From: an uncultured Oscillospiraceae bacterium
GTDB lineage: Bacteria > Bacillota > Clostridia > Oscillospirales > Oscillospiraceae
Reading direction: 5' to 3'
Length of the DNA: 43,303 nt
Assembly: GCA_947589745.1 (NCBI GenBank)
Contig: CANQCS010000017.1
Location: 1-43,303 of the forward strand
The number at the start of each line of letters is the position of its first letter. Position 1 is the first letter of the stretch. The notes beneath the pieces were generated by a model. It was given only the letters and a program-made list of their open reading frames with translations, was not told the DNA's origin and did not search any database. A program made the position numbers and the translations under genes. Positions 7,700-24,522 of the stretch are shown here, one piece after another.

Positions 7700-7789
7700 C
7701 GTCACCGTGTCCCCATTTAGGGACCTCAACGCAGTCGGGAGCGAGTATAAAGTTCTTTTTGCTTACTTTTTCTTTCAAGAAAAAGTAAG
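7700..7789 (+). repeat. Copy A of the covarying-hairpin repeat
   Basis: Starts with CGTCACCGTG, then a GTCCCC/GGGAC small hairpin, AGCGAG, the fixed block AAAGTTCTTTTTG (7749-7761) and the hairpin CTTAC + fixed 18-base core + GTAAG (7762-7789). The core reads TTTTTCTTTCAAGAAAAA. The stop codon of the hexosaminidase gene on the other strand lies in the hairpin loop, so the repeat supplies that protein's last codons. Confidence 0.8.
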
Positions 7790-9070
7790 GAGTCCCAGGT
7801 CATATTTCCAACCAAGTACGCGGGTCACAGCCTGGTCGATCAGGTCCTCGCTGAGAAGTCCGGTGCGTACCGCGTCGATGACCAGGGGGATCTGCTCTTG
7901 GTAGTCCGTGGTGACGATCAGGTCGTTCCCGGCCAGGGCGGCCAGGACGGCCACGGACCCGTCCTCGGCGTAGGCTTTCACCGCGTCCATGTCCAGGTCG
8001 TCGGTCATGATGACGCCCTCAAAGCCCAGCTCCTCCCGGAGTACCCGGTGGACCTCCGGCGACAGGGAGGCGGGCAGGTCCGGGTCCATGCAGGTGACCA
8101 CGTTGTGATTCACCAGCACCCCGCCGGCCCCGGCCTCGATGCCCGCCTGGAAAGGCAGGAAGTCCTGGGACTGGAAGGTCTCATAGGGGCGCTCGTCTAT
8201 GGCCACGCCGGTGTGGGTGTCCACGTTGTTCCCGTAGCCGGGGAAGTGCTTGAGCACCGAGCCGATGAAGCGCCAGGAGCCGTCCTCCTGTTCCAGCTGC
8301 ACCTGGTTGGCGGCGGAGACCACGGTCTCCACGAAGTCCGCCGTCGCCCCGGCGTCCTGGCCGAAGGAGCGGTCATAGATGAAGTCCGCCGGGTCCACGG
8401 ACACGTCGGCCACTGGCGCCAGGTTGACGTTGATGCCCAGCTCCAGCAGGCCGGTGCTCTTGTCCGCGGCGTCGGTCCGCACCGCCTCCAGCCCGCCGGA
8501 GGCGAACACATCCTGGGGGGACTGGAATTTGGCGGCAAAGAGGTTGGGGTCCCGGCTGGCCCTGGCCACGGTGCCGCCCTCCTCGTCCACGCCGATGAGC
8601 AGGGGAATCTTTGCCTCCGCCTGATAGGCGGCGACGTTGGCTATGAACTGATCTTTTGTCAGCCAGTTGTCCGAGGCGTCCTTGAAGTCCCGGCCAAAGA
8701 GGATGTAGCCGCCCAGGTGATAGGCGCTGACGTCCTCCGCCGCCCCGACGTCGGGGCACCGGACAAAAAACATCTGGCCCACCTTCTCCTCCAGGGACAT
8801 GGAGGACAGGGCGGATCCCACCGCTTCCTGGCGGGGGTCGGGTTCCGGCTCCGGCTCAGGGGGAGCGGTCTCGGGGCGGACGATCTTCTGATCCTCCGTC
8901 CCGGCGGCGGTCCCCTCCGGGGCAGAGGCAGAGGCGCCGCCGTTGACGGCGGCAACATCCGTTGGCTGCTGTTCGCCCTCCGGCGGGGAAGCACTATTTT
9001 TGTTCGTCTGGCTGGCGCAGGCGGTCAAAAGGAGAAGAGACAATACTATTGGCAACAGACGTTTGTACAT
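7775..9070 (-). CDS. GH3 beta-N-acetylhexosaminidase lipoprotein (NagZ-like)
   Basis: Glycoside hydrolase family 3 protein of 431 residues, probably releasing GlcNAc from cell-wall muropeptides or other beta-hexosaminides at the cell surface. A lipoprotein signal ends in LLTAC (Cys18). A 75-residue Pro/Glu/Ala-rich linker leads into the TIM barrel, which begins near LEEKVGQMFFV. KHFPGYG and the VIMTDDLDM segment, which carries the usual GH3 nucleophile Asp, are both present. The protein ends right after the barrel, as NagZ does, without the second GH3 domain. The ATG at 9070 has GAGGTG upstream. The last residues (LLTFS) are encoded by dispersed repeat A. Substrate is inferred from family. 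Confidence 0.88.
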   Translation of the reverse strand: MYKRLLPIVLSLLLLTACASQTNKNSASPPEGEQQPTDVAAVNGGASASAPEGTAAGTEDQKIVRPETAPPEPEPEPDPRQEAVGSALSSMSLEEKVGQMFFVRCPDVGAAEDVSAYHLGGYILFGRDFKDASDNWLTKDQFIANVAAYQAEAKIPLLIGVDEEGGTVARASRDPNLFAAKFQSPQDVFASGGLEAVRTDAADKSTGLLELGINVNLAPVADVSVDPADFIYDRSFGQDAGATADFVETVVSAANQVQLEQEDGSWRFIGSVLKHFPGYGNNVDTHTGVAIDERPYETFQSQDFLPFQAGIEAGAGGVLVNHNVVTCMDPDLPASLSPEVHRVLREELGFEGVIMTDDLDMDAVKAYAEDGSVAVLAALAGNDLIVTTDYQEQIPLVIDAVRTGLLSEDLIDQAVTRVLGWKYDLGLLTFS

Positions 9071-9117
9071 AGAAAGCACCTCGCTATGCGGTGTATTCTG
9101 AATGTGGAGTGGGTGCA

Positions 9118-9784
9118 GGGGGCCTCCGGCCCCCACCGGGTCTGATGCGCACCCCCAATGGGTGCGCCCCTGGGGTACTTTTCCCACGCAGGAAAAGTAC
9201 CCAAAAGTGCGCTTAAGGGGGCGAAAGCCCCCTTAAGAATCCCCGGGGAGGACGGTTAAGGGCAAATGGTTGGTGGAACTAGGGGCCAGGGAAAGCTTTC
9301 ATCGGGGGTGCTGGTTTATTTTTTCCGTACTCTTACTGCTGGTTGCTCCGTTCCACTACGCAATTGACGGATGTTTCGTATCGGGCCGTATACGGAAATC
9401 TGTCCTGTGCGTAGTGGAACGGAGCAGAGCGCAGTCCGATGCGGAACGTATACGGAAATCTATCAATTGCGTAGTGGAACGGAGCAACCGGCAGTAAGAC
9501 AAAGTAAAAACCGACCAACGCACCCAATGAGCCCCTGCACCAGCGCTTCAATCTCCTTGGGGACATACTAAAGTAGCCGCTTCGCCTCATACACGGGACC
9601 CGGCCCGGTTCAGACAAAACCAGCCACAGGGGGAGCGCCAAATAAAACAAAAAATGAGGAAAGATTTTTAAGAAAACCTCGGTTTTCTTAAATGCACTTT
9701 TGGTTACTTTTCCTGCAAGGGAAAAGTACCCCAGGGGCGCACCCATCGGGGGTGCAGATCAACCCCGGTGGGGGCGGAGCCCCC
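9118..9784. repeat. Complete 667-bp intergenic element with long inverted ends
   Basis: This fills the gene-free stretch between the hexosaminidase and the methyltransferase. The left end (9118-9245) and the reverse complement of the right end (about 9660-9784) align over about 125 bases. Both contain, in order, a GGGGGC hairpin, ACCGGG, GCACCCCC-ATGGGTGCGCCCC, a GGGTACTTTTCC hairpin, AAAAGTGC and a CTTAAG-type hairpin. The centre has three 19-base cores. A similar element begins at 42731, and another right end lies at 1-44. No transposase is encoded. Open frames across it are not conserved between copies, because indels shift them. Confidence 0.8.
9344..9486. repeat. Three 19-base cores inside the element (one inverted, two direct)
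   Basis: TGCTCCGTTCCACTACGCA at 9344-9362, and its reverse complement at 9408-9426 and 9468-9486. The two direct copies are exactly 60 bases apart and share flanks (GTATACGGAAATCT before, a CGCAGT/GGCAGT motif after). The outermost pair extends to a near-perfect inverted repeat of about 36 bases. The copy at 42979-43061 has only one inverted and one direct core with the same 64-base offset, so the third unit looks like an expansion. Confidence 0.8.
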
Positions 9785-9804
9785 ACGCAGATCATTGGAT
9801 ATAT

Positions 9805-10575
9805 TTATTTCCCCCGAATGGCAGAAAAATATATCCGCTGCTCATTTTCCCGGGGGGACGACATCCGGCAGTCGCCAAACGTCCGGATGTGGGTGAACCC
9901 CGCCTCCATCAGCCAGGAGCGGAGCTCGTCCGCCTCGTAGCCCTTCTGACGGTGCTCCTCCCCCGCCCGGTCCCAGGCGCCGTCGGGGCGGGCGGTGAAA
10001 ATGTCCATCCAGTAGGAGCAGATGCGGCTGCGCTTCTCGTAGGACGCCCGCCACACACAGTACACGTCCTCTTTTTCATCAAGAAACACCTGCCCGTCCA
10101 GGGAGGCCAGCTTGGCCACGCTGTTCACGTCGAACACCAGCAGCCCGCCGGGGGCGATGAACAGGTGCAGCCGCTGGAAGGTCCGCTGGACGTCCTTGGG
10201 ATTCGTCAGGTAGTTGAGGCTGTCCAGACAGCAGATGGCCGCGTCCACTGTGCCGTACAGGTCCAGCTCCGGCATGCTCTGGTTGAGAAATACCGGCGGC
10301 TCCCCGGTGAGAGTCTCCGCTTTCTGCCGGGCGGCGGCCAGCATCTCCGGACTACTGTCCACCGAGATCAGCTCGTAGCCCCGTTCCGTCAGCAGCGCCG
10401 TCATCTCCCCTGTCCCGCAGGCCAGGTCCAGCACTGTATGTACCGGGATGCGGCTGCGCCGGAACAGCTTCTCCAGGTAGTCCGCCCGGCGCTGGTAGCC
10501 CACATCCTCCGTCAGCGCGTCGTAGACGCCCGCCAGGGCCCCGTAGGCCTCCGCGGGAACCCGCCCGGCGCTCAT
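9805..10575 (-). CDS. Class I SAM-dependent methyltransferase
   Basis: Cytoplasmic protein of 256 residues with a Rossmann-type SAM fold. Motif I is VLDLACGTGEMT (about 48-59). The acidic end of strand 2 is ISVDSS, and a DAAICCLDSLNYL post-motif is typical of small-molecule methyltransferases of the YjhP / Methyltransf_25 kind. The ATG overlaps the yerC stop codon by four bases (ATGA), so translation is coupled. The substrate cannot be told. The same pairing of a YerC-like protein and this methyltransferase would be worth checking in relatives. The gene ends 20 bases from the large repeat element. Confidence 0.88.
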   Translation of the reverse strand: MSAGRVPAEAYGALAGVYDALTEDVGYQRRADYLEKLFRRSRIPVHTVLDLACGTGEMTALLTERGYELISVDSSPEMLAAARQKAETLTGEPPVFLNQSMPELDLYGTVDAAICCLDSLNYLTNPKDVQRTFQRLHLFIAPGGLLVFDVNSVAKLASLDGQVFLDEKEDVYCVWRASYEKRSRICSYWMDIFTARPDGAWDRAGEEHRQKGYEADELRSWLMEAGFTHIRTFGDCRMSSPRENEQRIYFSAIRGK

Positions 10576-10895
10576 GCCTCCTCCGGCTGCCCTTCGGCAG
10601 CGGGCTCCTCGCCCTCGCAGCGGTCAAAGTAGGTCTGATACCCCCCGTGGCCGAAGGACAGGGAGCGGTTCACCCGGCTGATGGTGGCGCTGGACGCCCC
10701 CGTCCGATTCAGGATGTCGTTGTAGATCATGCCCTGCTGGAGCAGCACCGCCACCTCGAAGCGCTGCTCCATGGCCCGCAGCTCCGTGACGGTACACAGG
10801 TCCTGAAAGAAATTGTAGACCTCTTCCTCTGTTTTCAGAGTCAGAATGGCCCGGTAGAGCCCGTCCGCTTTCTGCTTCTTTGAGATCCTCGCCAT
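10572..10895 (-). CDS. yerC: TrpR-like YerC/YecD family DNA-binding protein
   Basis: Protein of 107 residues with the TrpR superfamily helix-turn-helix. The segment TVTELRAMEQRFEVAVLL is followed by MIYNDILNRTGASSATISRVNRSL, which is the recognition part shared with YerC of Bacillus. The acidic Ala/Glu tail is low complexity. No tryptophan genes are nearby, so a role as the tryptophan repressor is not implied. It is expressed from its own TTTACT-17-TAGAAT promoter and coupled to the methyltransferase gene. Confidence 0.92.
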   Translation of the reverse strand: MARISKKQKADGLYRAILTLKTEEEVYNFFQDLCTVTELRAMEQRFEVAVLLQQGMIYNDILNRTGASSATISRVNRSLSFGHGGYQTYFDRCEGEEPAAEGQPEEA

Positions 10896-10929
10896 ATAGG
10901 GAATTCCTCCATCCTGTAAAGATATCTCT

Positions 10930-10958
10930 ATTCTAGCACTTTATCCGGCGAAAGTAAA
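10930..10958 (-). promoter_or_regulatory. Promoter of yerC-methyltransferase
   Basis: Minus strand TTTACT (10958-10953), 17 bases, TAGAAT (10935-10930). The RBS (GGAGG) and ATG of yerC follow about 35 bases downstream. Confidence 0.65.
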
Positions 10959-11020
10959 CACCCTTTTCCAAATTTCAGGAAACCCCGCAAAGCCCGCATA
11001 AAAGCGGCGGAGCGGCAGAT

Positions 11021-11147
11021 GATGAAATCGGCAATTAAAAATGCCGATTTAATCAAAGATTGAAAGGCCGTTTTGCTCGCCGCTACGCGGCAACCGCAAA
11101 ACATGGCCAATATTACTCCTGCGATGATTGAATCGCCGGAGTAATAT
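11021..11147. other. Three consecutive stem-loops in the yerC-glgB gap
   Basis: The gap 10896-11409 holds no gene. Hairpin 1 is 11021-11054 (AAATCGGCA/TGCCGATTT with a further GAT/ATC). Hairpin 2 is 11066-11108 (GGCC, GTTTTGC/GCAAAAC, inner GCCGC/GCGGC). Hairpin 3 is 11110-11147 (ATATTACTCC/GGAGTAATAT with inner GCGAT/ATCGC). Stems are nearly perfect, and no U-run follows on either strand. It lies upstream of the glgB promoter, so it is not in the glg leader. It may be a dispersed repeat or a small RNA. Confidence 0.6.
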
Positions 11148-11257
11148 ATAGAAAATAGCCAGACTGCGGGATTGGAAACTGTACTTTTTTGTTAAAAACA
11201 TCATAAGCCGACAAAATTTTTTGTACTTTTTGCCGTGGAGAAATGGGAGATGCCGCC

Positions 11258-11286
11258 TTGACGTTGGGGCCGCGGGCGGGTATAAT
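11258..11286 (+). promoter_or_regulatory. Promoter of the glycogen operon
   Basis: TTGACG (11258-11263), a very GC-rich 17-base spacer, TATAAT (11281-11286). The leader to glgB is about 117 bases. No other strong promoter was seen before glgP. Confidence 0.75.
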
Positions 11287-11409
11287 ACGGTTAAATGGAT
11301 CGTTCTATCTTTCCACAGCCCCGATTTGGCCCGGATGGTGCGGCAAACGGGGAGGACCTGACAGTGCAGGTCGCAAAAAACAATCATTTTTGTACCAACG
11401 GAGGACACA

Positions 11410-13476
11410 ATGCCTTACAAAGAAGCTGACGAACTGAATACATACCTGTTCCATGAGGGAACGTCCATCACCGCCTATGAGTACATGGGCGCCCACGCGG
11501 TCAGCCGCGAGGGGGTGGACGGCTACGTATTCCGCGTGTGGGCCCCCAACGCCCGTGCGGTGTCCGTGGCCGGGGACTTCAACGGCTGGGACCAGGCCGC
11601 GGCCCCCATGCACAAGATCACCGGCGGCATCTGGGAGTGCTTCATCCCCGGCTGTAAGACCTTCGACGCCTACAAGTTCGCCGTCACCGGCCCGGACGGC
11701 GCGGTCCACATGAAGTCCGACCCCTACGCTTTCCACGCCGAGACCCGCCCCGGCAACGCCAGCAAGCTCTACACCATCGACGGCTACCAGTGGGGCGACG
11801 GGGCGTGGCGGGAGAGCCGCAAGGGCCACCCGGTCTACTCCTCCCCCCTGAACATCTACGAGGTCCATCTGGGCTCCTGGCGCCGCCGGGAGAACGGGGA
11901 CTTCATCGACTACCGGGATCTGGCCCTCCAGCTGGCCCCCTACGTCAAGGAGATGGGGTTCAACTTCATCGAGCTGCTGCCCGTCACCGAGTACCCCCTG
12001 GACGAGAGCTGGGGCTATCAGGTCACCGGCTACTACGCCCCCACCTCCCGGTACGGACGGCCCGAGGACTTCATGTTCTTCGTGGACTATATGCACCAGA
12101 ACGGCCTGGGCGTCATCCTGGACTGGGTGCCCTCCCACTTCTGCAAGGACGAGCACGGCCTGGCCATCTTTGACGGCACTCCCTGCTACGAGTACGCCGA
12201 CCCCCGGAAGGGCGAGCACTACGCCTGGGGCACCAAGGTGTTCGACTACGCCCGGCCCGAGGTGAAGACCTTCCTCCTGTCCTCCGCGGCCTTCTGGCTG
12301 AAGGAGTACCACGTGGACGGCATCCGGGTGGACGCGGTGGCGTCCATGCTGTACCTGGACTACAACCGGCAGGGGGGAGAGTGGGTCCCCAACATCTACG
12401 GCGGCCATGAGCACCTGGAGGCCATCGACTTCCTGCGGGCGCTCAATAAGACCGCGTTCCAGGTGAATCCCGACGCCCTCATGGTGGCGGAGGAGTCCAC
12501 CGCCTGGCCCCTGGTGACCCGGCCCGCCGACATCGGCGGCCTGGGCTTCAACCTGAAGTGGAACATGGGCTGGATGAACGACATGTGCCACTACCTGAAG
12601 ATGGACCCCTGGTTCCGCCAGGGCAACCACCGGGATATCACCTTCTCCATGTACTACGCTTTCTCGGAGAACTATATCCTGCCCCTCAGCCACGACGAGG
12701 TGGTCCACATGAAGGGCTCCGTCTACGGCAAGATGCCGGGGACACCGGAGCAGAAGTTCGCCGGGGTCCGGGGGTTCTACGCCTACACCATGGCCCACCC
12801 GGGCAAGAAGCTGAGCTTCATGGGCGTGGAGCTGGGCACCGAGCGTGAGTGGGCGTTCCAGGGCCAGCTCAACTGGGAGCTGCTGGAGAACGAGCCCAAC
12901 CGCCAGATCCAGCAGTATATCAAGGATATCAACCGCTTCTACCAGGAGAACAGCCCTCTGTGGGAGATCGACTTCGACTGGGAGGGGTTTGAGTGGCTGG
13001 TCACCGACGACAACCAGAACAACGTGGTGGTGTTCATCCGGCGGGACAAGTCCGGCAACGAGCTGGTCTGCGCGGTGAACTTCAACCCCAACACCTATGA
13101 GGACTACCGCTTCGGCTGCCCGCCGGTGAAGGAGTACGTGGAGGTGTTCAACAGCGACCGGACCGAGTACGGCGGCACCGGCGTCCTGAACGAGGCTCCC
13201 TGCAAGGTCAGCTGGCAGGAGTCCCACGGCCGGGAGTCCTCCGTGTCCATCCGCATCCCGCCCTTCGGCGCGGTGTTCCTGAAGGGCCAGGGCAAGCTCC
13301 GGGCCAAGCCCAAGCCCCGGACAAAGAAGGCCGATGACGAGGCCGCCGAAAAGCCCGCTGCCAGAAAGACCGCCAAGAAGACCGAAAAGGCGGAAAAGAC
13401 CCCCGCCGTGAAGAAGGCCGGGACGGAGAAAAAGACCGCGACCCGGACCCGCAAAAAAGCGGCTGATACTGTTTGA
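11410..13476 (+). CDS. glgB: 1,4-alpha-glucan branching enzyme with a basic C-terminal tail
   Basis: GH13 branching enzyme of 688 residues that forms alpha-1,6 branches in glycogen. An N-terminal CBM48 domain (about 20-110, with VAGDFNGW) precedes the barrel. Catalytic motifs: GIRVDAVASM (nucleophile Asp308), VAEESTAW (acid at Glu361) and LPLSHDEVVH (Asp429). The all-beta C-terminal domain ends near 628. The last 55 residues are an unusual Lys/Ala/Thr/Pro-rich disordered tail (about 633-688), not part of the usual enzyme. The RBS GGAGGA precedes the ATG. It is the first gene of the glg operon. Confidence 0.96.
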   Translation: MPYKEADELNTYLFHEGTSITAYEYMGAHAVSREGVDGYVFRVWAPNARAVSVAGDFNGWDQAAAPMHKITGGIWECFIPGCKTFDAYKFAVTGPDGAVHMKSDPYAFHAETRPGNASKLYTIDGYQWGDGAWRESRKGHPVYSSPLNIYEVHLGSWRRRENGDFIDYRDLALQLAPYVKEMGFNFIELLPVTEYPLDESWGYQVTGYYAPTSRYGRPEDFMFFVDYMHQNGLGVILDWVPSHFCKDEHGLAIFDGTPCYEYADPRKGEHYAWGTKVFDYARPEVKTFLLSSAAFWLKEYHVDGIRVDAVASMLYLDYNRQGGEWVPNIYGGHEHLEAIDFLRALNKTAFQVNPDALMVAEESTAWPLVTRPADIGGLGFNLKWNMGWMNDMCHYLKMDPWFRQGNHRDITFSMYYAFSENYILPLSHDEVVHMKGSVYGKMPGTPEQKFAGVRGFYAYTMAHPGKKLSFMGVELGTEREWAFQGQLNWELLENEPNRQIQQYIKDINRFYQENSPLWEIDFDWEGFEWLVTDDNQNNVVVFIRRDKSGNELVCAVNFNPNTYEDYRFGCPPVKEYVEVFNSDRTEYGGTGVLNEAPCKVSWQESHGRESSVSIRIPPFGAVFLKGQGKLRAKPKPRTKKADDEAAEKPAARKTAKKTEKAEKTPAVKKAGTEKKTATRTRKKAADTV

Positions 13477-13521
13477 GTCTATCAGAGAATAGTAAAATAA
13501 ATCAGAGAGGATGAGAACCCC

Positions 13522-15845: not shown

Positions 15846-15852
15846 CACCACC

Positions 15853-15887
15853 CACGGTGACAGCCAGAGAGATCTGCCGTCACCGTG
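15853..15887 (+). other. Stem-loop after glgD
   Basis: CACGGTGAC (15853-15861) and GTCACCGTG (15879-15887) form a perfect 9-bp stem just after the glgD stop. The right arm is the opening motif of repeat copy B. There is no U-run, so it is more likely an RNA-stability or partial-attenuation site than a full terminator. Confidence 0.6.
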
Positions 15888-15967
15888 CGGAACCCCCCAG
15901 TACCGCAGAGCCTTCCAGAGCGAAGTGAAAAGTTCTTTTTGCTTCTTTTTCTTTCAAGAAAAAGAAG
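15878..15967 (+). repeat. Copy B of the covarying-hairpin repeat
   Basis: CGTCACCGTGCGG, a TGCGG/CCGCA hairpin, AGCGAAG, AAAGTTCTTTTTG, then CTTC + fixed core TTTTTCTTTCAAGAAAAA + GAAG. It is inside the glg operon, 25 bases before the glgA start, and is the only copy transcribed in the sense direction within an operon. Confidence 0.8.
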
Positions 15968-15991
15968 GAACGCAAAGGAGGACATACGCTT

Positions 15992-17458
15992 ATGAAAATT
16001 CTGTTTGCCGCCTCCGAGGCCGTGCCGTTCTGTAAGACCGGCGGTCTGGCCGATGTGGCGGGCAGTCTGCCGCAAGCCCTGGCCCAGGCCGGAAACGAGG
16101 TGGAGGTCATCCTCCCCCTGTACCAGAAGGTGTCCGAGAAGTGGAAGGACCAGATGGAGTTCGTGTGCGCCATCGAGGTCCCCCTGGGCTGGCGGCGGGT
16201 GTACTGCGGCCTGTTCCGGCTGGACCGGGACGGCGTCATCTGGTACTTCGTGGACAACGAGTACTACTTCAAGCGCGACAGCCTCTACGGCCACTATGAC
16301 GACGGCGAGCGCTTCGGCTTCTTCTCCCGGGCCATCGTGTCCCTGCTCCCCGCCCTGGCCTTCATGCCGGAGGTCATCCACTGCAACGACTGGCAGACCG
16401 CCCTGGTGCCCGTCTACCTGAAGGACGAGTGCGTGCGCTGGGAGGAGGTCCGCAGCATCAAGACCGTCTTCACCGTGCACAATATCGAGTACCAGGGCCG
16501 CTACGGCAAGGACACCCTGGAGGACCTGTTCGGTCTGGCCCCCGGCTGGTACGCCGACGGCACCATCGCCATGGACGGCGACGTGAACCTGCTGAAGGGC
16601 GCCCTCATGACCTGCGACGCCATCACCGCCGTCAGCCCCACCTACGCCCAGGAGCTGCGCTACTCCTTCTTCGCCCACGGCATGGAGAGCGTCATGCAGC
16701 TCAACGCCGGGAAGCTCTACGGCGTGCTCAACGGCCTGGACATGGTCCGCTACGACCCCGCCACCGACCCCGGCCTGGCGGCCAACTACAGCCTCTACAC
16801 CAAGACCGGCAAGGTGTCCGCCAAGGACACCGTCACCCCCGGCAAGGCCAAGAATAAGGCCCGCCTCCAGGAGCAGGTGGGCCTGGAGGTGGATCCCGAC
16901 GTGCCGGTCATCGGCATGGTCACCCGCCTCGTCAGCCACAAGGGCCTGGACCTGGTGTGCAAGGTCTTTGACCAGATCATGGACCTCAAGTGCCAGGTGG
17001 TCATCCTGGGCAGCGGCGACTGGAACTACGAGCAGTTCTTCGAGGAGAAGGCCGGCCAGTACCCCGGCCGCATGGCCCTCTACCGGGGCTACAGCGACGC
17101 CCTGGCCACCAGCATCTACGCCGGCGCGGACCTGTTCCTCATGCCCTCCCGCAGCGAGCCCTGCGGCCTGAGCCAGATGATCGCCATGCGCTACGGCACC
17201 GTGCCCATCGTCCGGGAGACCGGCGGCCTGAAGGACACCGTCCACCCCTACGAGGCGTGGCGGGGCGCCGGGAACGGCTTCACCTTCTGCGACTACAACA
17301 GCGGCGACATGCTCTACGTCATCCGGCAGGCGGTGTCCTTGTACTATGACAACCCCGCCGCCTTCCAGGCCCTGCGGACCGCCGGTATGGCTGAGGACTT
17401 CAGCTGGCGGCGCAGCGCCGAGGCCTACAACGAGATCTACAAGAAGATCTGCTCCTGA
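15992..17458 (+). CDS. glgA: Glycogen synthase (ADP-glucose)
   Basis: GT5 glycosyltransferase of 488 residues that extends alpha-1,4 glucan chains. It begins MKILFAASEAVPFCKTGGLA, with the Lys15-Thr-Gly-Gly ADP-glucose-binding motif. VIHCNDWQTALVP follows, and the C-terminal domain has PSRSEPCGLSQMIAMRYG and VRETGGLKDTV. The start has an AAAGGAGG site six to eight bases away. Dispersed repeat B sits just upstream; a stem-loop follows before glgP. Confidence 0.97.
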   Translation: MKILFAASEAVPFCKTGGLADVAGSLPQALAQAGNEVEVILPLYQKVSEKWKDQMEFVCAIEVPLGWRRVYCGLFRLDRDGVIWYFVDNEYYFKRDSLYGHYDDGERFGFFSRAIVSLLPALAFMPEVIHCNDWQTALVPVYLKDECVRWEEVRSIKTVFTVHNIEYQGRYGKDTLEDLFGLAPGWYADGTIAMDGDVNLLKGALMTCDAITAVSPTYAQELRYSFFAHGMESVMQLNAGKLYGVLNGLDMVRYDPATDPGLAANYSLYTKTGKVSAKDTVTPGKAKNKARLQEQVGLEVDPDVPVIGMVTRLVSHKGLDLVCKVFDQIMDLKCQVVILGSGDWNYEQFFEEKAGQYPGRMALYRGYSDALATSIYAGADLFLMPSRSEPCGLSQMIAMRYGTVPIVRETGGLKDTVHPYEAWRGAGNGFTFCDYNSGDMLYVIRQAVSLYYDNPAAFQALRTAGMAEDFSWRRSAEAYNEIYKKICS

Positions 17459-17477
17459 TATCCTGACCGTTCGAACC

Positions 17478-17512
17478 CATGGCGGGGCGCGCGGAAGACG
17501 TGCCCCGCCATG
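17478..17512 (+). other. Stem-loop between glgA and glgP
   Basis: CATGGCGGGGC and its complement form an 11-bp stem around a 13-base loop. It is 17 bases after the glgA stop and lacks a U-run. It may protect the upstream mRNA or lower read-through into glgP. Confidence 0.55.
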
Positions 17513-17544
17513 TCATTCTGCCTTGCAAGAAAGGAATACCCCAT

Positions 17545-19974
17545 ATGGAAAAATTTACTAAGGACTCCATGAAGAAAGCCATCGCCGACAAGCTGAGCAT
17601 CAACTTCAGCACCACCGTGGAGGAGGCCACCGAGGAGAACATCATGAAGGCCTGCGCCATGGTGCTGCGGGACATGATGAGCGTCAACGCGGTGAACACC
17701 CGTGCCCGGACCCGGAAGGAGGAGCGCCGCCAGGTCCACTATATGTCGCTGGAGTTCCTGATGGGCCGCAGCCTGATGAAGAACGCCTACAACCTGGGCG
17801 TGCTGGAGCCCATGAAGGAGGCCATCGCGGACATGGGCTTCAAGCCCTCCCACATCTTCGACATGGAGCCCGACGCGGGCCTGGGCAACGGAGGCCTGGG
17901 CCGTCTGGCCGCCTGCTACATGGACAGCCTGGCCACCCTGGAGATCCCGGCCTACGGCTACTCCATCTGCTATGAGTTGGGCATCTTCCGCCAGAAGATC
18001 GTGGACGGCCAGCAGCTGGAGCTGCCCGACAACTGGAAGGACCAGGGCGACGCCTGGCTGATCCCCCGCCCCGACGAGGTGGAAGAGGTCCACTTCGGCG
18101 GCACTCTCCGGGAGTTCTGGGACGACGACCACCTGCACATCGTCAACGAGGGCTATACCCGTGTCCTAGCCGTGCCCTGCGACATGTCCATCGCCGGCTA
18201 TGACACGGACCACACCAACGTCCTCCGCCTGTGGGACGCCAAGAGCCCCACGCCCATCGACATGAGCCTCTTCAGCCGGGGCGAGTATCTGAAGGCCAGC
18301 GAGGAGCAGGCCATGGCTGAGGTCATCGCCAAGGTCCTCTACCCGGAGGACAACCACTACGAGGGCAAGAGCCTGCGCCTGAAGCAGCAGTACTTCTTCG
18401 TCTCCGCCACGGTCCAGTCCATCGTCCGCAAGCACATCCAGACCTACGGCACCCTCACCAACTTCCACGAGAAGAACGTGATCCAGATCAACGACACCCA
18501 CCCCGCCCTGGTGATCCCCGAGCTCATGCGCATCCTCATGGACGACGCGGGCCTGGGCTGGGAGGAGTCCTGGAACATCACGGTGAACTCCGTGGCCTAC
18601 ACCAACCACACCGTCCTGGCCGAGGCCCTGGAGCGCTGGCCCCAGGAGCTGGTCCAGACGCTGCTGCCCCGCATCTGGCAGATCCTCACCGAGATCGCCC
18701 GCCGCTGGCAGGAGAGGGTGGAGAACTACTACCACGACTACAACAAGGTCCAGAACATGGCGGTCATCTGGGGCGGCGAGGTCCGCATGGCCAACCTGTG
18801 CATCGCCGGCGGCATGGCCGTCAACGGCGTGTCCGCCCTCCACAGCGATATCCTCCGCAACGACGTCTTCCACGACGCCTGCGTCATGGAGCCGGAGAAG
18901 TTCAAGAACGTCACCAACGGCATCGACCACCGCCGCTGGCTGGCGGAGATCAACCCCGGCCTGGACGGCCTCATCCGGGACCTCACCGGCGGTGACGACT
19001 ACCTGCGCCACCCCGGCACTGCCCTGCCCAAGCTGGACGCCTACGCCGATGACGCCGCCGTGCTCCAGCGCTTGGAGGAGATCAAGCAGGCCAACAAGCT
19101 GGCCTTCGCCAAGTACGCCAAGAAGACCCAGGGCCTGGTGCTCAACACCGACGCCATCTTCGACGTGCAGGCCAAGCGGCTCCACGAGTACAAGCGGCAG
19201 CTGCTGAACGTCATGCACATCATCTACCTCTATCAGCGCATCCACGACGAGCCCAACATGGAGATGCGGCCCCACACCTTCCTCTTCGGCGCCAAGGCCG
19301 CTCCCGGCTACGCCGCCGCCAAGCGGATCATCCGCCTCATCAACTCCCTGGCCGACCAGATCGCCAAGGACCCCGTGTGCAAGGATAAGCTGCAGGTGTT
19401 CTTCCTGGAGAACTACCGGGTGTCCATGGCGGAGGTCCTCATGCCCGCCAGCGAGGTGAGCCAGCAGATCTCCACCGCCGGCAAGGAGGCCAGCGGCACC
19501 GGCAACATGAAGTTCATGATGAACGGCGCCCTGACCGTGGGCACCCTGGATGGGGCCAACGTGGAGATGCACGAAGTGCTGGGCGACGAGAACATGTTCC
19601 TCTTCGGCCTGAAGACCGAGGAGGTCAAGGAGCTCCAGAACAGCGGCTACAACCCCTACCGCATCTACAGCCGCGACCCGGTGCTGCACCGGGTGCTGGA
19701 CCAGATCAGCAACGGCTTCCGGGACGGCGTCCGCTACGACGACCTGGTAGAGAGCCTGCTCTTCGGCCGCGGCGGCTCCGCCGACGTGTATATGCTCCTG
19801 GCGGACTTCGCCTCCTACTGCGCCGCCGAGCGCCGGATGGCGGAGACCTACGCCGACCGCACCCGCTGGAACCAGATGAGCCTCCACAACATCGCCCGCT
19901 CCGGCATCTTTGCCGCCGACCGTTCCATCGCGGACTACGCCGACCGAATCTGGCACGTGCCCTACAAGAAGTGA
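17545..19974 (+). CDS. glgP: Glycogen/maltodextrin phosphorylase
   Basis: GT35 phosphorylase of 809 residues that releases glucose-1-phosphate from glycogen. Motifs: SLEFLMGRSL near the N-terminus, PDAGLGNGGLGRLAAC, and the pyridoxal-phosphate region KEASGTGNMKFMMNGALTVG, which includes the cofactor lysine. The ATG at 17545 is chosen over an in-frame upstream start at 17479, because the latter lies in the stem-loop and lacks homology. It is the last gene of the operon, with a strong terminator following. Confidence 0.97.
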   Translation: MEKFTKDSMKKAIADKLSINFSTTVEEATEENIMKACAMVLRDMMSVNAVNTRARTRKEERRQVHYMSLEFLMGRSLMKNAYNLGVLEPMKEAIADMGFKPSHIFDMEPDAGLGNGGLGRLAACYMDSLATLEIPAYGYSICYELGIFRQKIVDGQQLELPDNWKDQGDAWLIPRPDEVEEVHFGGTLREFWDDDHLHIVNEGYTRVLAVPCDMSIAGYDTDHTNVLRLWDAKSPTPIDMSLFSRGEYLKASEEQAMAEVIAKVLYPEDNHYEGKSLRLKQQYFFVSATVQSIVRKHIQTYGTLTNFHEKNVIQINDTHPALVIPELMRILMDDAGLGWEESWNITVNSVAYTNHTVLAEALERWPQELVQTLLPRIWQILTEIARRWQERVENYYHDYNKVQNMAVIWGGEVRMANLCIAGGMAVNGVSALHSDILRNDVFHDACVMEPEKFKNVTNGIDHRRWLAEINPGLDGLIRDLTGGDDYLRHPGTALPKLDAYADDAAVLQRLEEIKQANKLAFAKYAKKTQGLVLNTDAIFDVQAKRLHEYKRQLLNVMHIIYLYQRIHDEPNMEMRPHTFLFGAKAAPGYAAAKRIIRLINSLADQIAKDPVCKDKLQVFFLENYRVSMAEVLMPASEVSQQISTAGKEASGTGNMKFMMNGALTVGTLDGANVEMHEVLGDENMFLFGLKTEEVKELQNSGYNPYRIYSRDPVLHRVLDQISNGFRDGVRYDDLVESLLFGRGGSADVYMLLADFASYCAAERRMAETYADRTRWNQMSLHNIARSGIFAADRSIADYADRIWHVPYKK

Positions 19975-19998
19975 TCCCTTTTCTATATCAACGAAAAG

Positions 19999-20040
19999 AC
20001 CGCCGGTCCGGGAAAAATCCCGGACCGGCGGTTCATATTT
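19999..20040 (+). terminator. Terminator of the glycogen operon
   Basis: A 14-bp stem (ACCGCCGGTCCGGG and complement) with an AAAAAT loop, followed by TCATATTT, 25 bases after the glgP stop. Confidence 0.8.
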
Positions 20041-20071
20041 ACGGGTAAGGCATGCCAAAGAATACAATTCG

Positions 20072-20178
20072 TCAATTAGAAGAATCTATCGTTACCGTGC
20101 GGAAAACCCAGGGATTGCAATGCTTTGGCAGCGAGGTTAAAGTTCTTTTTGGTACTTTTTCTTTCAAGAAAAAGTATC
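20072..20178 (+). repeat. Copy C of the covarying-hairpin repeat
   Basis: TCAATTAGAAGAATCTAT then CGTTACCGTGCGG, a variable part, AGCGAGG, AAAGTTCTTTTTG, then GGTAC + fixed core + GTATC (one G-T pair). It lies between the convergent glgP and hypD genes, and the hairpin abuts the hypD stop codon. The first 18 bases are shared with copy D only. Confidence 0.8.
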
Positions 20179-22567
20179 AGTAAGCGCCGAAGCTCTGCTC
20201 GGTGCGCTCGATGATCTCGTCCTGGAGGGGCTTGTCGAGATTGCGGAAGTAGTCGCTGTAGCCCGCCACACGGACGATCAGGTCCCGGTACTCCTCCGGG
20301 TGCTGCTGGGCGGCCAGGAGGGTCTTGCGGCCCACCACGTTGAACTGGATGTGGTGTCCGTCCATGTTGAAGTAGGTGCGGATCAGGTTGGCCATGTTGT
20401 CCAGGCCCGTCTCGCCGGCCACCACCTCGGGGGTGAACTTCTGGTTCAGCAGGGTGCCGCCGGTGCGGAGGTGGTCCATCTTGGCGCAGGAGCGGATGAC
20501 GGCGGTGGGGCCGTGGGTGTCCGCGCCCTTCTCCGGGGAGATGCCCTCGGACACCGGCTTGTGGGCCAGGCGGCCGTTGGGGCTGGCGATCATGACGTCG
20601 CCGAAGTACACGTGGCAAGTGGTGGGGAGCATATCCACGCGGTACATGCCGCCCCGCATGTTGGGCCGGGCGCAGACGTCGTCCAGGAAGTAGTTGAACA
20701 CCTTCTTCATCAGGCCGTCGGCGTAGTCGTCGTCGTTGCCGTACTTGGGGGTCCTGTTCCGAACCAGATTCAGGATGCGCTCGTGGCCCTGGAAGTCGTC
20801 CTCCATGGCGGTGAGGATCTCGTCCATGGTGAAGTTGTGGTGGTCGTAGACGTTGTACTTGATGGCGGCCAGGCTGTCGGCAATGGTGCCGGTGCCCACG
20901 CCCTGGATGACGCTGGTGTTGTAGCGGGCGCCGCCGGCGTTGTAGTCCTTGCCCCTGGCGATGCAGTCGTTGGTCAGGATGGACAGGAAGGGTACGGGCA
21001 TATAGCGGGCGTACAGGCCCTCGATGACGTTGGAGCCCCGGACCTTGATGTCCAGGAAGTAGTCGATCTGTTTGGTGTAGGCGTCCCACAGCTGGTCGAA
21101 GGTCGTAAAGGTGCGGGGGTCGCCGGTCTGGGGCCCCAGCTGCTTGCCGGTCATGGGGTCCACGCCGTTGAACAGGGTCAGCTCGAAGATCTTGGGCAGG
21201 TTGAAGTAGCCCTGGAGAATGTAGGCCTCGTTGCCGAAGGCGCCGGTCTCCACGCAGCCGGAGCAGCCGCCCTTCCGGGCGTCCTCCAGGGACTTGCCGG
21301 CGTTCATCAGCTCCTGGATGATGGCCTCGGTGTTGTAGAAGGCGGGCTGGCCCCAGCCCTCCCGGGCCACCTCGCAGGCCCGCTTGAGGAACCGCTGGGG
21401 GTTCTTGCGGCTGATCTGCACGTTGGAGTTGGGCTGGACCAGCTTCATCTCGTCCATGCAGTCCAGGATGATGTAGGACACCTCGTTGACGCCGTCCTCG
21501 CCCTCGGGGGTGACGCCGCCGGTGTTGATGTTGGCGAAGTCGGTGTAGGTGCTGCTCTCCTTCAGGGTGATGCCCACCTTGGGGGGCGCGGGCTGGTTGT
21601 AGAACTTCACCCACAGGCACTCCATCAGCTCCAGGGCCTGGTCCCGGGTGAGGATGCCCGCCTCGGTGTCCCTCTCATAGAAGGGCGCCAGGTGCTGGTC
21701 GAAGTGGCCGGGGGAGTAGGCGTCCCAGGGGTTCAGCTCCGTGGTGACGGCCAGATGGGTGAACCAGTAGGTCTGGATGGCCTGATAGAAGGTCTCCGGC
21801 CTGTGGGCGGGCACCACGTCGCAGTTGGCGGCGATCTGCAGAAGCTCCCGCTTGCGCTGCTCGTCAGTGCACTCCGCCGCCATCTCACGGGCCAGGTCGG
21901 CGTACCGCTTGCCCAGGATCATGATGGCGTCGCAGGCGATGCTCATGGCGTTCAGCTGGTTCCGCTTGTCCAGGGCCTCCGGGTCGTTCATGTAGTCCAG
22001 CTTCGCCAGGGCCGCTTGGATGTCCTGCTGATAGTCCAGGTAGCCCTTCTCGTAGATCTTCACGGACCCGACGGTGTGGCCGGGGCCCCGCTGTTCCATG
22101 AACTCCGTGAAGATACCGGCGGCATAGGCGTCCCGCCACTGGTCGGTCATGCTGTCCAGGATCTTTTTCCGCATGGAGCGGTCCTCCCAGTAGGGAATGA
22201 TCTGCTCCGCCTGGATCTTCAGGTCCTCATCGGTGACAGTGAAGTTCACGACCTTGCGGTCGTTCATGTTGTGCATATCCTCCAGGGTGTGGCAGCACAG
22301 CTCCGGGAAGGTGGGGGCGGCCTGGGGGTAGTCGCCCTTCTCGCCCACGATCAGCTCACCGTCGCCGATGTACAGCTTCTTGTGGGAGAAGATGTGCTTC
22401 AGCGTCAGGGCGCGGAGCTCCGGCACGGACACCTTGCCCTCGTACATTTTGTACGCCTCCGTCTCCAGGACCGCGCGCTCGATGTAGATATGGGGCTGGG
22501 TCTCCACGCTCTGCTTCCTCAGCCGCCGGATGCGGTCGTTCATACCGCGCTCTCGAATCTCTGCCAT
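20177..22567 (-). CDS. hypD: trans-4-hydroxy-L-proline dehydratase (glycyl radical enzyme)
   Basis: Glycyl radical enzyme of 796 residues that removes water from trans-4-hydroxy-L-proline to give 1-pyrroline-5-carboxylate. The thiyl-radical motif is GCSGCVETGAFG (Cys438, Glu440). The radical glycine is Gly769 in RVAGYSDYF. From memory of the Clostridioides difficile HypD structure, the substrate-site residues Phe152, His160, Asp278, Ser334, Phe340, Cys434, Glu436, Tyr450 and Thr645 all recur here shifted by four (Phe156, His164, Asp282, Ser338, Phe344, Cys438, Glu440, Tyr454, Thr649). This argues against pyruvate formate-lyase, choline lyase or glycerol dehydratase. AGGAGG precedes the ATG. 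The activase gene ends six bases upstream. No proC is in the window to reduce the product. Confidence 0.93.
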   Translation of the reverse strand: MAEIRERGMNDRIRRLRKQSVETQPHIYIERAVLETEAYKMYEGKVSVPELRALTLKHIFSHKKLYIGDGELIVGEKGDYPQAAPTFPELCCHTLEDMHNMNDRKVVNFTVTDEDLKIQAEQIIPYWEDRSMRKKILDSMTDQWRDAYAAGIFTEFMEQRGPGHTVGSVKIYEKGYLDYQQDIQAALAKLDYMNDPEALDKRNQLNAMSIACDAIMILGKRYADLAREMAAECTDEQRKRELLQIAANCDVVPAHRPETFYQAIQTYWFTHLAVTTELNPWDAYSPGHFDQHLAPFYERDTEAGILTRDQALELMECLWVKFYNQPAPPKVGITLKESSTYTDFANINTGGVTPEGEDGVNEVSYIILDCMDEMKLVQPNSNVQISRKNPQRFLKRACEVAREGWGQPAFYNTEAIIQELMNAGKSLEDARKGGCSGCVETGAFGNEAYILQGYFNLPKIFELTLFNGVDPMTGKQLGPQTGDPRTFTTFDQLWDAYTKQIDYFLDIKVRGSNVIEGLYARYMPVPFLSILTNDCIARGKDYNAGGARYNTSVIQGVGTGTIADSLAAIKYNVYDHHNFTMDEILTAMEDDFQGHERILNLVRNRTPKYGNDDDYADGLMKKVFNYFLDDVCARPNMRGGMYRVDMLPTTCHVYFGDVMIASPNGRLAHKPVSEGISPEKGADTHGPTAVIRSCAKMDHLRTGGTLLNQKFTPEVVAGETGLDNMANLIRTYFNMDGHHIQFNVVGRKTLLAAQQHPEEYRDLIVRVAGYSDYFRNLDKPLQDEIIERTEQSFGAY

Positions 22568-22573
22568 AGTATA

Positions 22574-23494
22574 TTAACCTCCTATCTGGGTGTTTGGAAA
22601 TCCGTTTTCACGGAACGTTGCCGCGGCCCGGTCCAGAAAATCCTGGTCCGGCACGGCCATGGCGTCCTTCTCATAGGGCCGGCCCAGCTGCGGGTACTTG
22701 CCGCTGCCGGTGTCGTGGTACTTCAGGAGACACACCCGGCGGACCCGGATGCGGTTGTCTCGGAGGAAGGCGATGACATCCCGGATGTAGGCGTCTTCGG
22801 CGTTCACCCCGGCCACCAGCGGCATACGGATATCAATTTTCCCGCCGTCGCCGCTGAGCCGCTTCAGATTCTCCAGGATCAGGCCGTTGTCCACGCCGGT
22901 CCATCTCCTGTGGGCCTCCGGGTCCAGCAGCTTGATGTCGTACAGGAAAGTATCCACATAGGGCAGCACCCGCCGGATGTGCTCATAGGGCACGTGGCCG
23001 CAGGTGTCAATGTCCACGCTGTAGCCCCTGCCGTGGAGCCGCCGGACCAGGTCCTCGATGTAGTCCATATCCTGGGCCAGCGCCTCGCCGCCGGAGAGGG
23101 TGATGCCGCCGCCGGACTGCTCATAGAACATCCGGTCCTTCTCCAGCTCCCGCACCAGCTCCCGCAGCTCGTACTCCCGTCCGGCCGCCTCCCTGGCGCT
23201 GTGGACACAGGCGTCCGTGCAGGCGCCGCAGGCCCTGCACAGGGCCCGGTCCGTGGTGACGGTACGGCTCTGAGGGTCGAAGGCCACCGCCTTCTCCGGG
23301 CAGGCGGCCACACAGGCGCCGCAGCCGGTGCAGCGGCTGGCGTAGTACATGAGCTCCTTCTGCCAGCGCTGGCTCTCCGGGTTGTGGCACCAGCGGCAGG
23401 ACAGCGGGCAGCCCTTGAAGAAGACGGTGGTGCGGATGCCCTCCCCGTCATGGATGGAGTATTTCTGGATATTGAATATCAGCGGTGCAGACAT
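22574..23494 (-). CDS. hypE: Glycyl radical enzyme activase (HypE)
   Basis: Radical-SAM protein of 306 residues that installs the glycyl radical on HypD. The CxxxCxxC motif for the SAM-binding cluster is CPLSCRWC (Cys29, Cys33, Cys36). It is followed by two ferredoxin-like four-cysteine sets (CTGCGACVAAC and CRACGACTDAC), the insert found in activases of dehydratase-type glycyl radical enzymes. GGGITLSGGEAL is the usual SAM-contact region. It is the first gene of the hypE-hypD operon. The HypD RBS lies inside its last codons. Expression is from a promoter flanked by an inverted repeat (23531-23583). Confidence 0.95.
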   Translation of the reverse strand: MSAPLIFNIQKYSIHDGEGIRTTVFFKGCPLSCRWCHNPESQRWQKELMYYASRCTGCGACVAACPEKAVAFDPQSRTVTTDRALCRACGACTDACVHSAREAAGREYELRELVRELEKDRMFYEQSGGGITLSGGEALAQDMDYIEDLVRRLHGRGYSVDIDTCGHVPYEHIRRVLPYVDTFLYDIKLLDPEAHRRWTGVDNGLILENLKRLSGDGGKIDIRMPLVAGVNAEDAYIRDVIAFLRDNRIRVRRVCLLKYHDTGSGKYPQLGRPYEKDAMAVPDQDFLDRAAATFRENGFPNTQIGG

Positions 23495-23505
23495 GTTGTG
23501 TCCTC

Positions 23506-23583
23506 CACTATTTTCACAATAGTGAATTTCTTTTCATTTCCATTTTACTACTTTCCCGCCGGTTGTCAACAAGGAAATGAAAA
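23506..23583 (-). promoter_or_regulatory. hypED promoter flanked by a paired operator
   Basis: Minus-strand promoter TTGACA (23569-23564), 16 bases, TAAAAT (23547-23542). It is bracketed by an 11-base inverted repeat: TTTTCATTTCC at 23531-23541 and GGAAATGAAAA at 23573-23583. A further perfect inverted repeat, CACTATT/AATAGTG (23506-23524), lies in the leader next to the RBS. Binding by the divergent XRE-cupin regulator is inferred from position. Confidence 0.65.
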
Positions 23584-23644
23584 TTTGCACAAGACACGGC
23601 GACCGGCATTGTGCTCGTGGGGAGAATCGAATCGGAAAAAACGC

Positions 23645-23665
23645 ACGGTCAAAGGGCCGTTTTTC
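23645..23665 (+). terminator. Terminator-like hairpin ahead of the regulator promoter
   Basis: ACGGTC/GGCCGT with an AAAG loop followed by TTTTTCCGTTTG, just seven bases before the -35 box of the regulator gene. It may insulate the promoter from plus-strand read-through. It is short and weak, and no upstream plus-strand gene is seen. Confidence 0.3.
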
Positions 23666-23671
23666 CGTTTG

Positions 23672-23700
23672 TTGACAGCGGATGGAAAATCTGGTATAAT
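23672..23700 (+). promoter_or_regulatory. Promoter of the XRE-cupin regulator
   Basis: TTGACA (23672-23677), 17 bases, TATAAT (23695-23700): a consensus sigma-A promoter, 37 bases before the ATG. Confidence 0.85.
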
Positions 23701-23736
23701 TACACTATAAATCAATAAAGAAAACGGAGGCGCGGC

Positions 23737-24333
23737 ATGGACCCCAATCAGACGGTCGGCAGCAGGATCAAGCTCCTGCGCAGTGAGAAGAAGTATACCC
23801 TGAAGGCCCTCAGTGAGCGCACCGGGCTCTCCGTGGGCTTCCTGTCCCAGGTGGAGCGGGGGATCTCCTCCATCGCGGTGGACTCCCTGGCCAAGATCGC
23901 GGAGGCCCTGGGCGTGCCGCTGTCCACGTTTTTCGAGGTGGAGACGCCCGACACCCATGACCCCGTGGTCCACAGCTTCGCCCTCCATCAGAACGTGGTG
24001 AGCCCCCAGATCATCCAGAGCATCCTGAGCCATAATACGCTGGACTTTGACTTCCTCCCCCGGCACTTCCTGCTGATGCCCTTCAGCCACCCGGACACCC
24101 TGGCCCCGGAGATGTACACCCACTCCGGCGAGGAGTTCATCTATGTGCTGACCGGGGTGGTCTCCCTGTGGCTGGAGAACAACAGGTACACCCTCTACCC
24201 CGGGGACAGCGTCCAGATCCACTCCAACCAGCCCCACAACTGGGCCAACAACACCAACAAGGTGGCGGAGCTGCTGTCCATCAACTATCCAAACCCCTTC
24301 AAGACAGACGGGCCCTATGACGGCATCCTGTAG
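23737..24333 (+). CDS. XRE-family regulator with C-terminal cupin sensor
   Basis: Protein of 198 residues. The N-terminal helix-turn-helix spans about 8-62 (GSRIKLLRSEKKYTLKAL, then SVGFLSQVERG). A C-terminal cupin_2 domain spans about 105-185 (EMYTHSGEEFIYVLTGVVSL, PGDSVQIHSNQPHNWANN). This fold usually binds a small metabolite, sometimes through a metal held by His and Glu; His and Glu residues in THSGEE and QPHNW are in place. It is divergent from hypED and convergent with the opp operon, so it is the likely local regulator. The ligand might be hydroxyproline or a product, but that is inference. Confidence 0.92.
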   Translation: MDPNQTVGSRIKLLRSEKKYTLKALSERTGLSVGFLSQVERGISSIAVDSLAKIAEALGVPLSTFFEVETPDTHDPVVHSFALHQNVVSPQIIQSILSHNTLDFDFLPRHFLLMPFSHPDTLAPEMYTHSGEEFIYVLTGVVSLWLENNRYTLYPGDSVQIHSNQPHNWANNTNKVAELLSINYPNPFKTDGPYDGIL

Positions 24334-24360
24334 GAAAAACACAGAACAGAGCGATATGGC

Positions 24361-24391
24361 AAGCGGCCGGGAGGATTCCCGGCCGCTTTTG
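24361..24391 (+). terminator. Terminator of the regulator gene
   Basis: An 11-bp stem (AAGCGGCCGGG/CCCGGCCGCTT) with an AGGATT loop and a TTTTG tail, 27 bases after the stop. Confidence 0.8.
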
Positions 24392-24416
24392 TGGTAAAAT
24401 TGACGTTTACGATCCT

Positions 24417-24522
24417 TCAATTAGAACAATACATCGTTACCGTGTGGGTAATGTAGGTATCGCTATATTTGGTAGCGATAGTAAAGTTCTTTTTGATCCT
24501 TTTTCTTTCAAGAAAAAGGATT
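24417..24522 (+). repeat. Copy D of the covarying-hairpin repeat
   Basis: TCAATTAGAACAATACAT, CGTTACCGTG, a TATCGCT/AGCGATA hairpin, AAAGTTCTTTTTG, then GATCC + fixed core TTTTTCTTTCAAGAAAAA + GGATT. The right arm overlaps the oppF stop codon. It lies between convergent genes. Confidence 0.8.

Follow-up and report, generated by a model that had tools for sequence, protein, structure and literature searches.

A dispersed MITE-like repeat of Oscillospiraceae with a covarying terminal hairpin and a putative third strand

The stretch of DNA analyzed here, in the following called the window, comprises 43,303 nucleotides of contig CANQCS010000017.1 (GenBank assembly GCA_947589745.1) from an uncultured Oscillospiraceae bacterium, the host. 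It contains four copies of a repeat, all in the same orientation. Copy 2 lies just 5′ of the ribosome-binding site of a gene starting at 15992 and ends 24 nt before its ATG; this gene is putatively glgA, glgA and glgD being provisional gene names that come in part from a sequence-only reading of the window. The other three copies are found at stop codons of minus-strand genes. The right end of the repeat is a hairpin, preceded by a pyrimidine tract that mirrors one hairpin arm and changes together with it across genomes. The repeat occurs in hundreds of copies with fixed ends and a fixed length, duplicates its target and is present only sporadically at orthologous positions. On balance, the sequences favor a repeat resembling miniature inverted-repeat transposable elements (MITEs) that would spread a triplex hairpin to gene borders, where it may act as an RNA border or stability structure.

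A base-by-base check found the architecture AAAG-TTCTTTTT-G-x-TTTTTCTTTCAAGAAAAA-x′ in all four window copies, with TTTTTCTTTCAAGAAAAA as the core and x and x′ as the two arms of a variable stem. The sequence-only reading had proposed four copies in one orientation whose arms next to the core differ and nevertheless pair, and both its positions and its pairing hold: x/x′ reads CTTAC/GTAAG, CTTC/GAAG, GTAC/GTAT (with one G.U pair) and ATCC/GGAT in copies 1 to 4. Its three contacts with minus-strand stop codons are likewise present, at 7775–7777 (TGA, inside the hairpin loop of copy 1), 20177–20179 (TGA, the right-hand T-N-A of copy 3) and 24521–24523 (TAA, the right-hand T-N-A of copy 4). The repeat of about 90–110 nt that it described is real, but the full unit measures about 116 bp. 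A left end is recognizable in the window only for copies 3 and 4, with 9 of 20 bases matching in each of copies 1 and 2. While the dispersed, covarying element was rightly seen, that reading had overlooked the mirror third strand, the duplicated target and the patchy occurrence at orthologous positions. The coordinates of all parts are listed in Table 1.

Table 1 Repeat copies and neighboring features in the window.
Feature	Position	Strand	Parts and remarks
Copy 1, triplex-hairpin module	7753–7789	+	third strand 7753–7760, linker G 7761, x 7762–7766, core 7767–7784, x′ 7785–7789
Copy 2, module	15933–15967	+	third strand 15933–15940, G 15941, x 15942–15945, core 15946–15963, x′ 15964–15967
Copy 3, full unit, 116 bp	20062–20177	+	left end 16/20; covariance model R1 match G000:C17:20059-20180
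Copy 3, module	20143–20177	+	third strand 20143–20150, G 20151, x 20152–20155, core 20156–20173, x′ 20174–20177
Copy 4, full unit, 115 bp	24407–24521	+	left end 15/20
Copy 4, module	24487–24521	+	third strand 24487–24494, G 24495, x 24496–24499, core 24500–24517, x′ 24518–24521
Terminator-like G+C-rich inverted repeat beside copy 3	19997–20032	-	sole call in a scan of 19900–20300
G+C-rich inverted repeat beside copy 4	about 24360–24392		by eye
Second family	about 9148–9247	-	family loci L274–L303
Second family	about 9657–9756	+
Second family	43234–43303	+	cut by the window end

The tract TTCTTTTT lies 5–7 nt 5′ of the hairpin arm TTTTTCTT. It is the mirror image of that arm and, read in parallel, therefore fits the purine arm AAGAAAAA as a Hoogsteen strand would. 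For a mirror test, the loci collected were scanned for pyrimidine-armed hairpins without regard to the upstream sequence, and the best-fitting strand and offset were taken. A perfect mirror tract accompanied 210 of 226 standard-core hairpins and 44 of 51 whose core differs; four of the seven failures among the latter have the core TTTTCCC of a second repeat family described below. Examples of mirrored pairs (third strand/arm) are TTCTTTT/TTTTCTT, TTTCTTTT/TTTTCTTT, TTTTCTTT/TTTCTTTT, TTCCTTTT/TTTTCCTT, TTCTTTTTT/TTTTTTCTT, CTTCTCTTTTTT/TTTTTTCTCTTC and CTTTTCTTTTT/TTTTTCTTTTC. When each of the 16 core types of at least 6 nt was represented by one member, a mean of 13.6 perfect mirrors was obtained versus 3.6 after permutation (maximum 9 in 2,000). 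In a check in which the strand was chosen without the mirror, by pyrimidine tract plus G only, the outer T-run of the arm (3 to 7 T) equaled that of the tract in 27 of 36 distinct types, compared with a mean of 9.2 and a maximum of 19 in 10,000 shuffles; among the nine disagreements, four tracts do match once a linker other than G is allowed (C in three cases, T in the fourth). The third strand thus covaries with the arms, and this co-change suggests a three-strand structure, either of the pyrimidine motif on the plus strand or of the purine motif on the minus strand. Repair that corrects palindromes yields inverted repeats, not mirror repeats, and since it should not make the latter, the mirror relation argues for three strands.

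The stem x/x′ covaries as well. In 80 host copies the 12-bp stem is paired in 99.8% of its cells, compared with 95.5% in shuffles, and changes on both sides of a pair were found in 25 cells, in the two pairs next to the core, versus 3.4 in shuffles; the number of pairs with such a both-side change (2) is no better than in shuffles (1.4; 213 of 500 reach it). Loci from other genomes were mostly found by the standard-core pattern, so that the variants are those lying nearby, and the foreign modules used for stem, placement and pair counts were required to mirror with at most one mismatch (none for placement). Among 198 distinct foreign modules, for which x was left unconstrained in the search, positions 1–4 of x are Watson-Crick paired in 196, 190, 180 and 172, respectively, and all four pair types occur at positions 2 and 4. 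The linker plus x measures 5 nt in 253, 6 nt in 54, 4 nt in 7 and 7 nt in 31 of 345 modules. With 8 triplets and a 2-nt loop, the standard module fits the ITxF definition of an intrastrand triplex (stem 6–15, loops 1–6 nt), of which a linker plus x of 7 nt just exceeds the loop limit.

A possible G-C contact between the 5′ neighbor of the third strand and the loop is weak: A faces a loop T in three modules, in keeping with a change from G-C to A-T, but a few modules are mismatched. An extended pseudoknot pairing AAAG with CTTT was dropped, as it is broken at loci L133, L198 and L169. For the middle of the unit, RNAalifold returned only a weak 4-bp stem, and a CGTTACC/GGTAGCG stem, judged by eye, is broken in many copies. 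In other genomes, outward-facing pairs of modules occur at gaps of 30–52 nt (loci L176, L224, L127, L134, L203, L193, L181, L162 and L198); their cores are unlike in 10 of 10 pairs, and that each member has its own mirror tract follows from the construction of the list.

Genome-wide, the 18-nt core has 283 matches with at most one mismatch (137 + 146) in the 4.05-Mb assembly and none (0 + 0) in a reversed control. Among the matches listed, 107 distinct contexts were examined, of which 101 carry the upstream tract AAAGTTCTTTTT with at most two mismatches and six do not; the copies used below for unit length, gene placement and worn-copy counts were preselected for the tract at this threshold. 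Of the six contexts in which the strand read has no third strand, two are modules of the opposite strand. Conservation rises steeply some 97 nt 5′ of the core and ends roughly 24 nt past the first core position. Among the 101 copies examined, 57 have a recognizable left end (at least 15/20), and all of them are 115–116 bp long. T-N-A flanks the unit ends, and in the 46 copies with T-N-A on both sides, N is identical in 30, versus a shuffle mean of 14.3 with 0 of 20,000 shuffles as high. Copies 3 and 4 lack T-N-A on the left, so that the evidence for target duplication comes from copies outside the window. When reverse-complemented, the right end TNATACTTTTTCTT is similar to the left end TNATACTATTCTT over about 13 bp, a short and imperfect likeness between consensus sequences judged by eye. 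Orphan left ends were not found, as all 32 exact left-end matches fall in full-length units of the model list (compared by eye).

At orthologous positions the repeat is only sporadically present. In the gap 5′ of the gene at 15992, a module within 260 nt was present in 2 of the 23 genomes recovered (the host and genome G301), and the element after the stop codon at 20177–20179 is present in the host and in 0 of 3 relatives whose gene end was read. The target duplication and the sporadic presence at the orthologous gap therefore make the repeat MITE-like. In G301, a second species, a related module (locus L260) sits 5′ of the glgA orthologue in the same place with a different left sequence and different surroundings, perhaps as an independent insertion. 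A regulator specific to the glg operon was discarded as a candidate, the module being found in the orthologous gap of just these two genomes. Y1_Tnp (PF01797) had no match in the host genome, a 98.8% complete draft, with 5 of 14 control genomes positive, and an identity with REP/RAYT was rejected for the host on this ground. The surroundings of seven PF01609 matches contained a few single end-like matches (at most two mismatches) but no inverted pair and no module, so that no IS4/IS5-type partner was identified around them.

The sequence-only reading had named few further copies or non-complementary arms in advance as grounds for giving up its dispersed structured element. The genome search, the search of related genomes and the statistical test of covariation returned hundreds of copies with complementary arms, presence across the genus and stem covariation, which exceeds shuffles in the host and is seen in foreign modules as well. 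A covariance model built from 80 of the 101 tract-bearing copies (alignment A2) matches 24 of 25 genomes of the genus, host included, the miss being a 67%-complete genome. Outside the genus the exact module is rare: among 295 genomes drawn from the order it was found in the host and one other, and in 2 of 148 genomes drawn from the family of that other genome. A pattern scan of named genomes returned at least 91 stretches; among the matches listed are Oscillibacter, Pseudoflavonifractor, Intestinimonas, Flavonifractor, many unnamed Oscillospiraceae and Clostridia, and one contig labeled Nitrospinota. This contig (JADGCD010000158.1, locus L201) carries several modules far from Oscillospiraceae, which may reflect mis-binning or transfer. 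That no named family matches agrees with Rfam, of which no family reached its gathering cut-off in the window and only two weak, unrelated matches were obtained for copy 3 at E ≤ 1; in the literature searched, no description of this element was found.

For the placement analysis, genes were predicted by a custom caller based on codon usage. None of the predicted genes runs across a copy (0 of 101 in the host, 0 of 171 in foreign genomes), divergent gaps are rare (5 host, 4 foreign) and convergent gaps common (27 host, 29 foreign). The stop codon of a minus-strand right neighbor coincides exactly with the right T-N-A in 33 of 64 host copies. Within the 57 well-ended copies this holds for 26 of 39, compared with 1 of 30 for the stop of a plus-strand left neighbor and the left T-N-A (p = 4e-8). 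The repeat thus lies in intergenic gaps with its hairpin end at the gene edge. A T-rich target flank was tried as the cause of this orientation bias and rejected (T is 0.27 in the 20 nt overall, with two single positions at 0.40–0.44).

Among known dispersed repeats, REP/BIME elements share the hairpins in gene gaps near gene ends, the rarity between divergent genes and the frequent outward pairs; unlike them, the present repeat has no Y1/RAYT match in the host genome, duplicates T-N-A and carries a third strand. MITEs such as Correia and RUP are similar in having a unit of about 100 bp that is apparently non-coding, a short target duplication and hundreds of copies. They differ in that here one end is a hairpin that keeps its pairing while its sequence varies, and in that no partner transposase was identified by our searches.

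Knowledge of intrastrand-triplex repeats in bacteria dates back to the 1990s, and those of E. coli (BoxC/PIT/TM_ECO) are the nearest known elements. TM_ECO, the best-studied case found in our searches, belongs to class II, with a purine motif rich in G/C (Holder et al. 2015, PMC4666352). According to that paper, the TM_ECO repeats show high identity and association with genomic instability, without a link to mobile elements, in vivo support for their triplex or a regulatory role, and purine-motif triplexes cannot form in RNA. The repeat described here is likewise dispersed and intergenic, with three tracts on one strand and inverted pairs of two non-identical types. It is not a TM_ECO member: on the plus strand it has a pyrimidine motif rich in T, which falls into class IV of the same scheme, a variable stem of 4–5 bp separates the third strand from the triplex, and three-strand covariation is accompanied by evidence of mobility. 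Similar to RNA major-groove triplexes, such as the ENE and the H-type pseudoknot of SAM-V (the latter in PMC6061858), a U-rich strand attached by a very short linker is predicted to occupy the deep groove of an A-U helix. In contrast to both, the third strand here simply precedes the hairpin, and the single possible G-C contact, weak as it is, stands in for the pseudoknot stem.

We regard it as somewhat probable that a MITE-like repeat of about 116 bp, probably mobilized in trans and duplicating its T-N-A target, carries to gene borders a hairpin that folds as a triplex and is selected in plus-strand RNA. Its right end would be this hairpin, onto whose purine arm the 5′ pyrimidine tract would fold back as a parallel Hoogsteen third strand, forming T/U.A-T/U and C+.G-C triplets. 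The predicted order is third strand, linker (usually one G), the largely free 4–5 bp stem x and the triplex helix. In transcripts, such a compact border structure could block exonucleases or shield a neighboring gene from incoming transcription. Mobility alone would account for the spread, and the hairpin would be kept because it matters in transcripts or DNA. We consider the border or stability role in RNA the most likely function, as far as sequence can tell. Several points weigh against it. No transposase was identified in the draft assembly, in which PF01797 and PF01609 were the families searched. In tandem gaps, antisense and sense copies number 36 vs 26 in the host and 71 vs 50 in foreign genomes, a distribution not expected from a role in plus-strand RNA. 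Of the 16 core types in the permutation test, several differ in length alone, and the conservation of the core was ascertained by the search itself. Four lone hairpins have no third strand, at L010 (+, 1636), L050 (-, 492), L091 (-, 988) and L097 (+, 173). The mirror relation is equally compatible with a DNA triplex of the purine motif on the opposite strand. G.U pairs exceed A.C pairs at positions 1–4 of x (31 vs 13, p = 0.0096), an excess that would point to RNA, but it is modest, the cells are not independent and host copies alone give 5 vs 4.

The folded end could instead be a mobility signal only, hairpin and third strand being recognized as folded DNA by the mobilizing enzyme without benefit to the host; this rival is serious, even if we think it rather less than probable. 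In its favor are the T-N-A target duplication, the outward pairing of modules, which resembles that of two-ended elements, the patchy distribution over orthologous positions and the occurrence in both orientations relative to transcription. It fits less well with the worn copies: all 39 tract-bearing copies without a recognizable left end keep the exact tract (39 of 43 when the four lone hairpins are added), and 35 of these 39 have a fully Watson-Crick 4-bp x, in 13 different versions. This set is mildly biased, having been kept for a tract with at most two mismatches, and part of the worn copies may represent older subfamilies instead of decayed units. In 49 indel-free copies, the third strand has the lowest share of rare variants, with 4 of 392 cells affected, compared with 37 of 1,421 in the left end and 47 of 2,303 in the middle. 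Moreover, a cut-and-paste enzyme that duplicates its target would normally depend on sequence rather than on a stem that varies freely, and the PF01797 and PF01609 searches identified no such enzyme. Unlikely, in our estimate, is a triplex acting at the DNA level, of either the pyrimidine or the purine motif, that would act by stalling replication or transcription or by promoting rearrangement, as has been proposed for TM_ECO. Mirror symmetry fits both motif classes, and paired non-identical modules resemble the combination of TM_ECO type A with type B (PMC4666352), but the G.U excess in x speaks against it, a 1-nt linker beside a 4–5 bp stem would suit the narrow groove of an A-form helix, and A/T-rich tracts with a single C would suit the pyrimidine rather than the purine motif.

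A bidirectional or intrinsic transcription terminator, the device that the sequence-only reading had suggested, appears very unlikely. It would explain a hairpin located just after stop codons and frequent between convergent genes, and for three of the four window pieces the fold is better than in almost every shuffle (z-scores of -3.15, -1.27, -4.21 and -2.54 for the 60-nt pieces of copies 1 to 4, copy 2 being not clearly better). However, a T-run 3′ of the hairpin is missing on either strand in all four copies, 19 of 101 copies lie within 56 nt 5′ of a same-strand gene start, and separate G+C-rich inverted repeats stand beside copies 3 and 4. Both copies lie between the minus-strand stop codon and this G+C-rich repeat, and the element is therefore not the terminator. 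Most improbable of all is neutral covariation by quasi-palindrome correction, in which template switching perfects the hairpin arms. Such correction could account for x and x′ matching while they drift, and it could contribute to x, but it is expected to produce inverted rather than mirror repeats and should leave the third strand behind, whose changes do follow the arms.

A third strand that changes in step with a hairpin across several genomes is an evolutionary signature that the three-strand structure matters, and the triplex question is testable on short RNAs and DNAs in which the third strand is broken and rescued. The repeat also offers a concrete case of a mobile element that seems to carry a conserved structure, putatively a triple helix at its tip, to hundreds of gene borders.

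A second dispersed family in the host genome (225 core matches with at most three mismatches, control 0) has the sequence CGCA-CTTTT-G-GGTAC-TTTTCC-TGCG-AG-GGAAAA-GTACC. It is apparently an H-type pseudoknot whose CUUUU loop would be placed as the deep-groove third strand of an A-U helix. Its S1 stem can pair over at least 3 bp in 26 and at least 4 bp in 24 of 28 distinct copies, with eight sequence types, and S1 and the stem x of S2 both vary in paired fashion; of these 28 copies, four come from other genomes, and one of the two S1 failures is really a first-family module. The second family supports the idea that such folds are favored in the host genome. Taking both families together, we put forward as a possibility, short of a probable one, that bacterial RNA contains a natural and widespread class of pyrimidine-motif triple-helix hairpins under three-strand selection, carried by mobile repeats of Oscillospiraceae and serving as border or stability elements at gene ends, with the second family showing a similar H-type pseudoknot geometry. 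Copies of the second family often form outward-facing pairs, roughly 430–500 bp apart in long intergenic gaps (L274, L275, L280, L282, L283, L284, L289, L293, L295 and, in the window, 9191–9697), and are perhaps the pseudoknot ends of a larger element.

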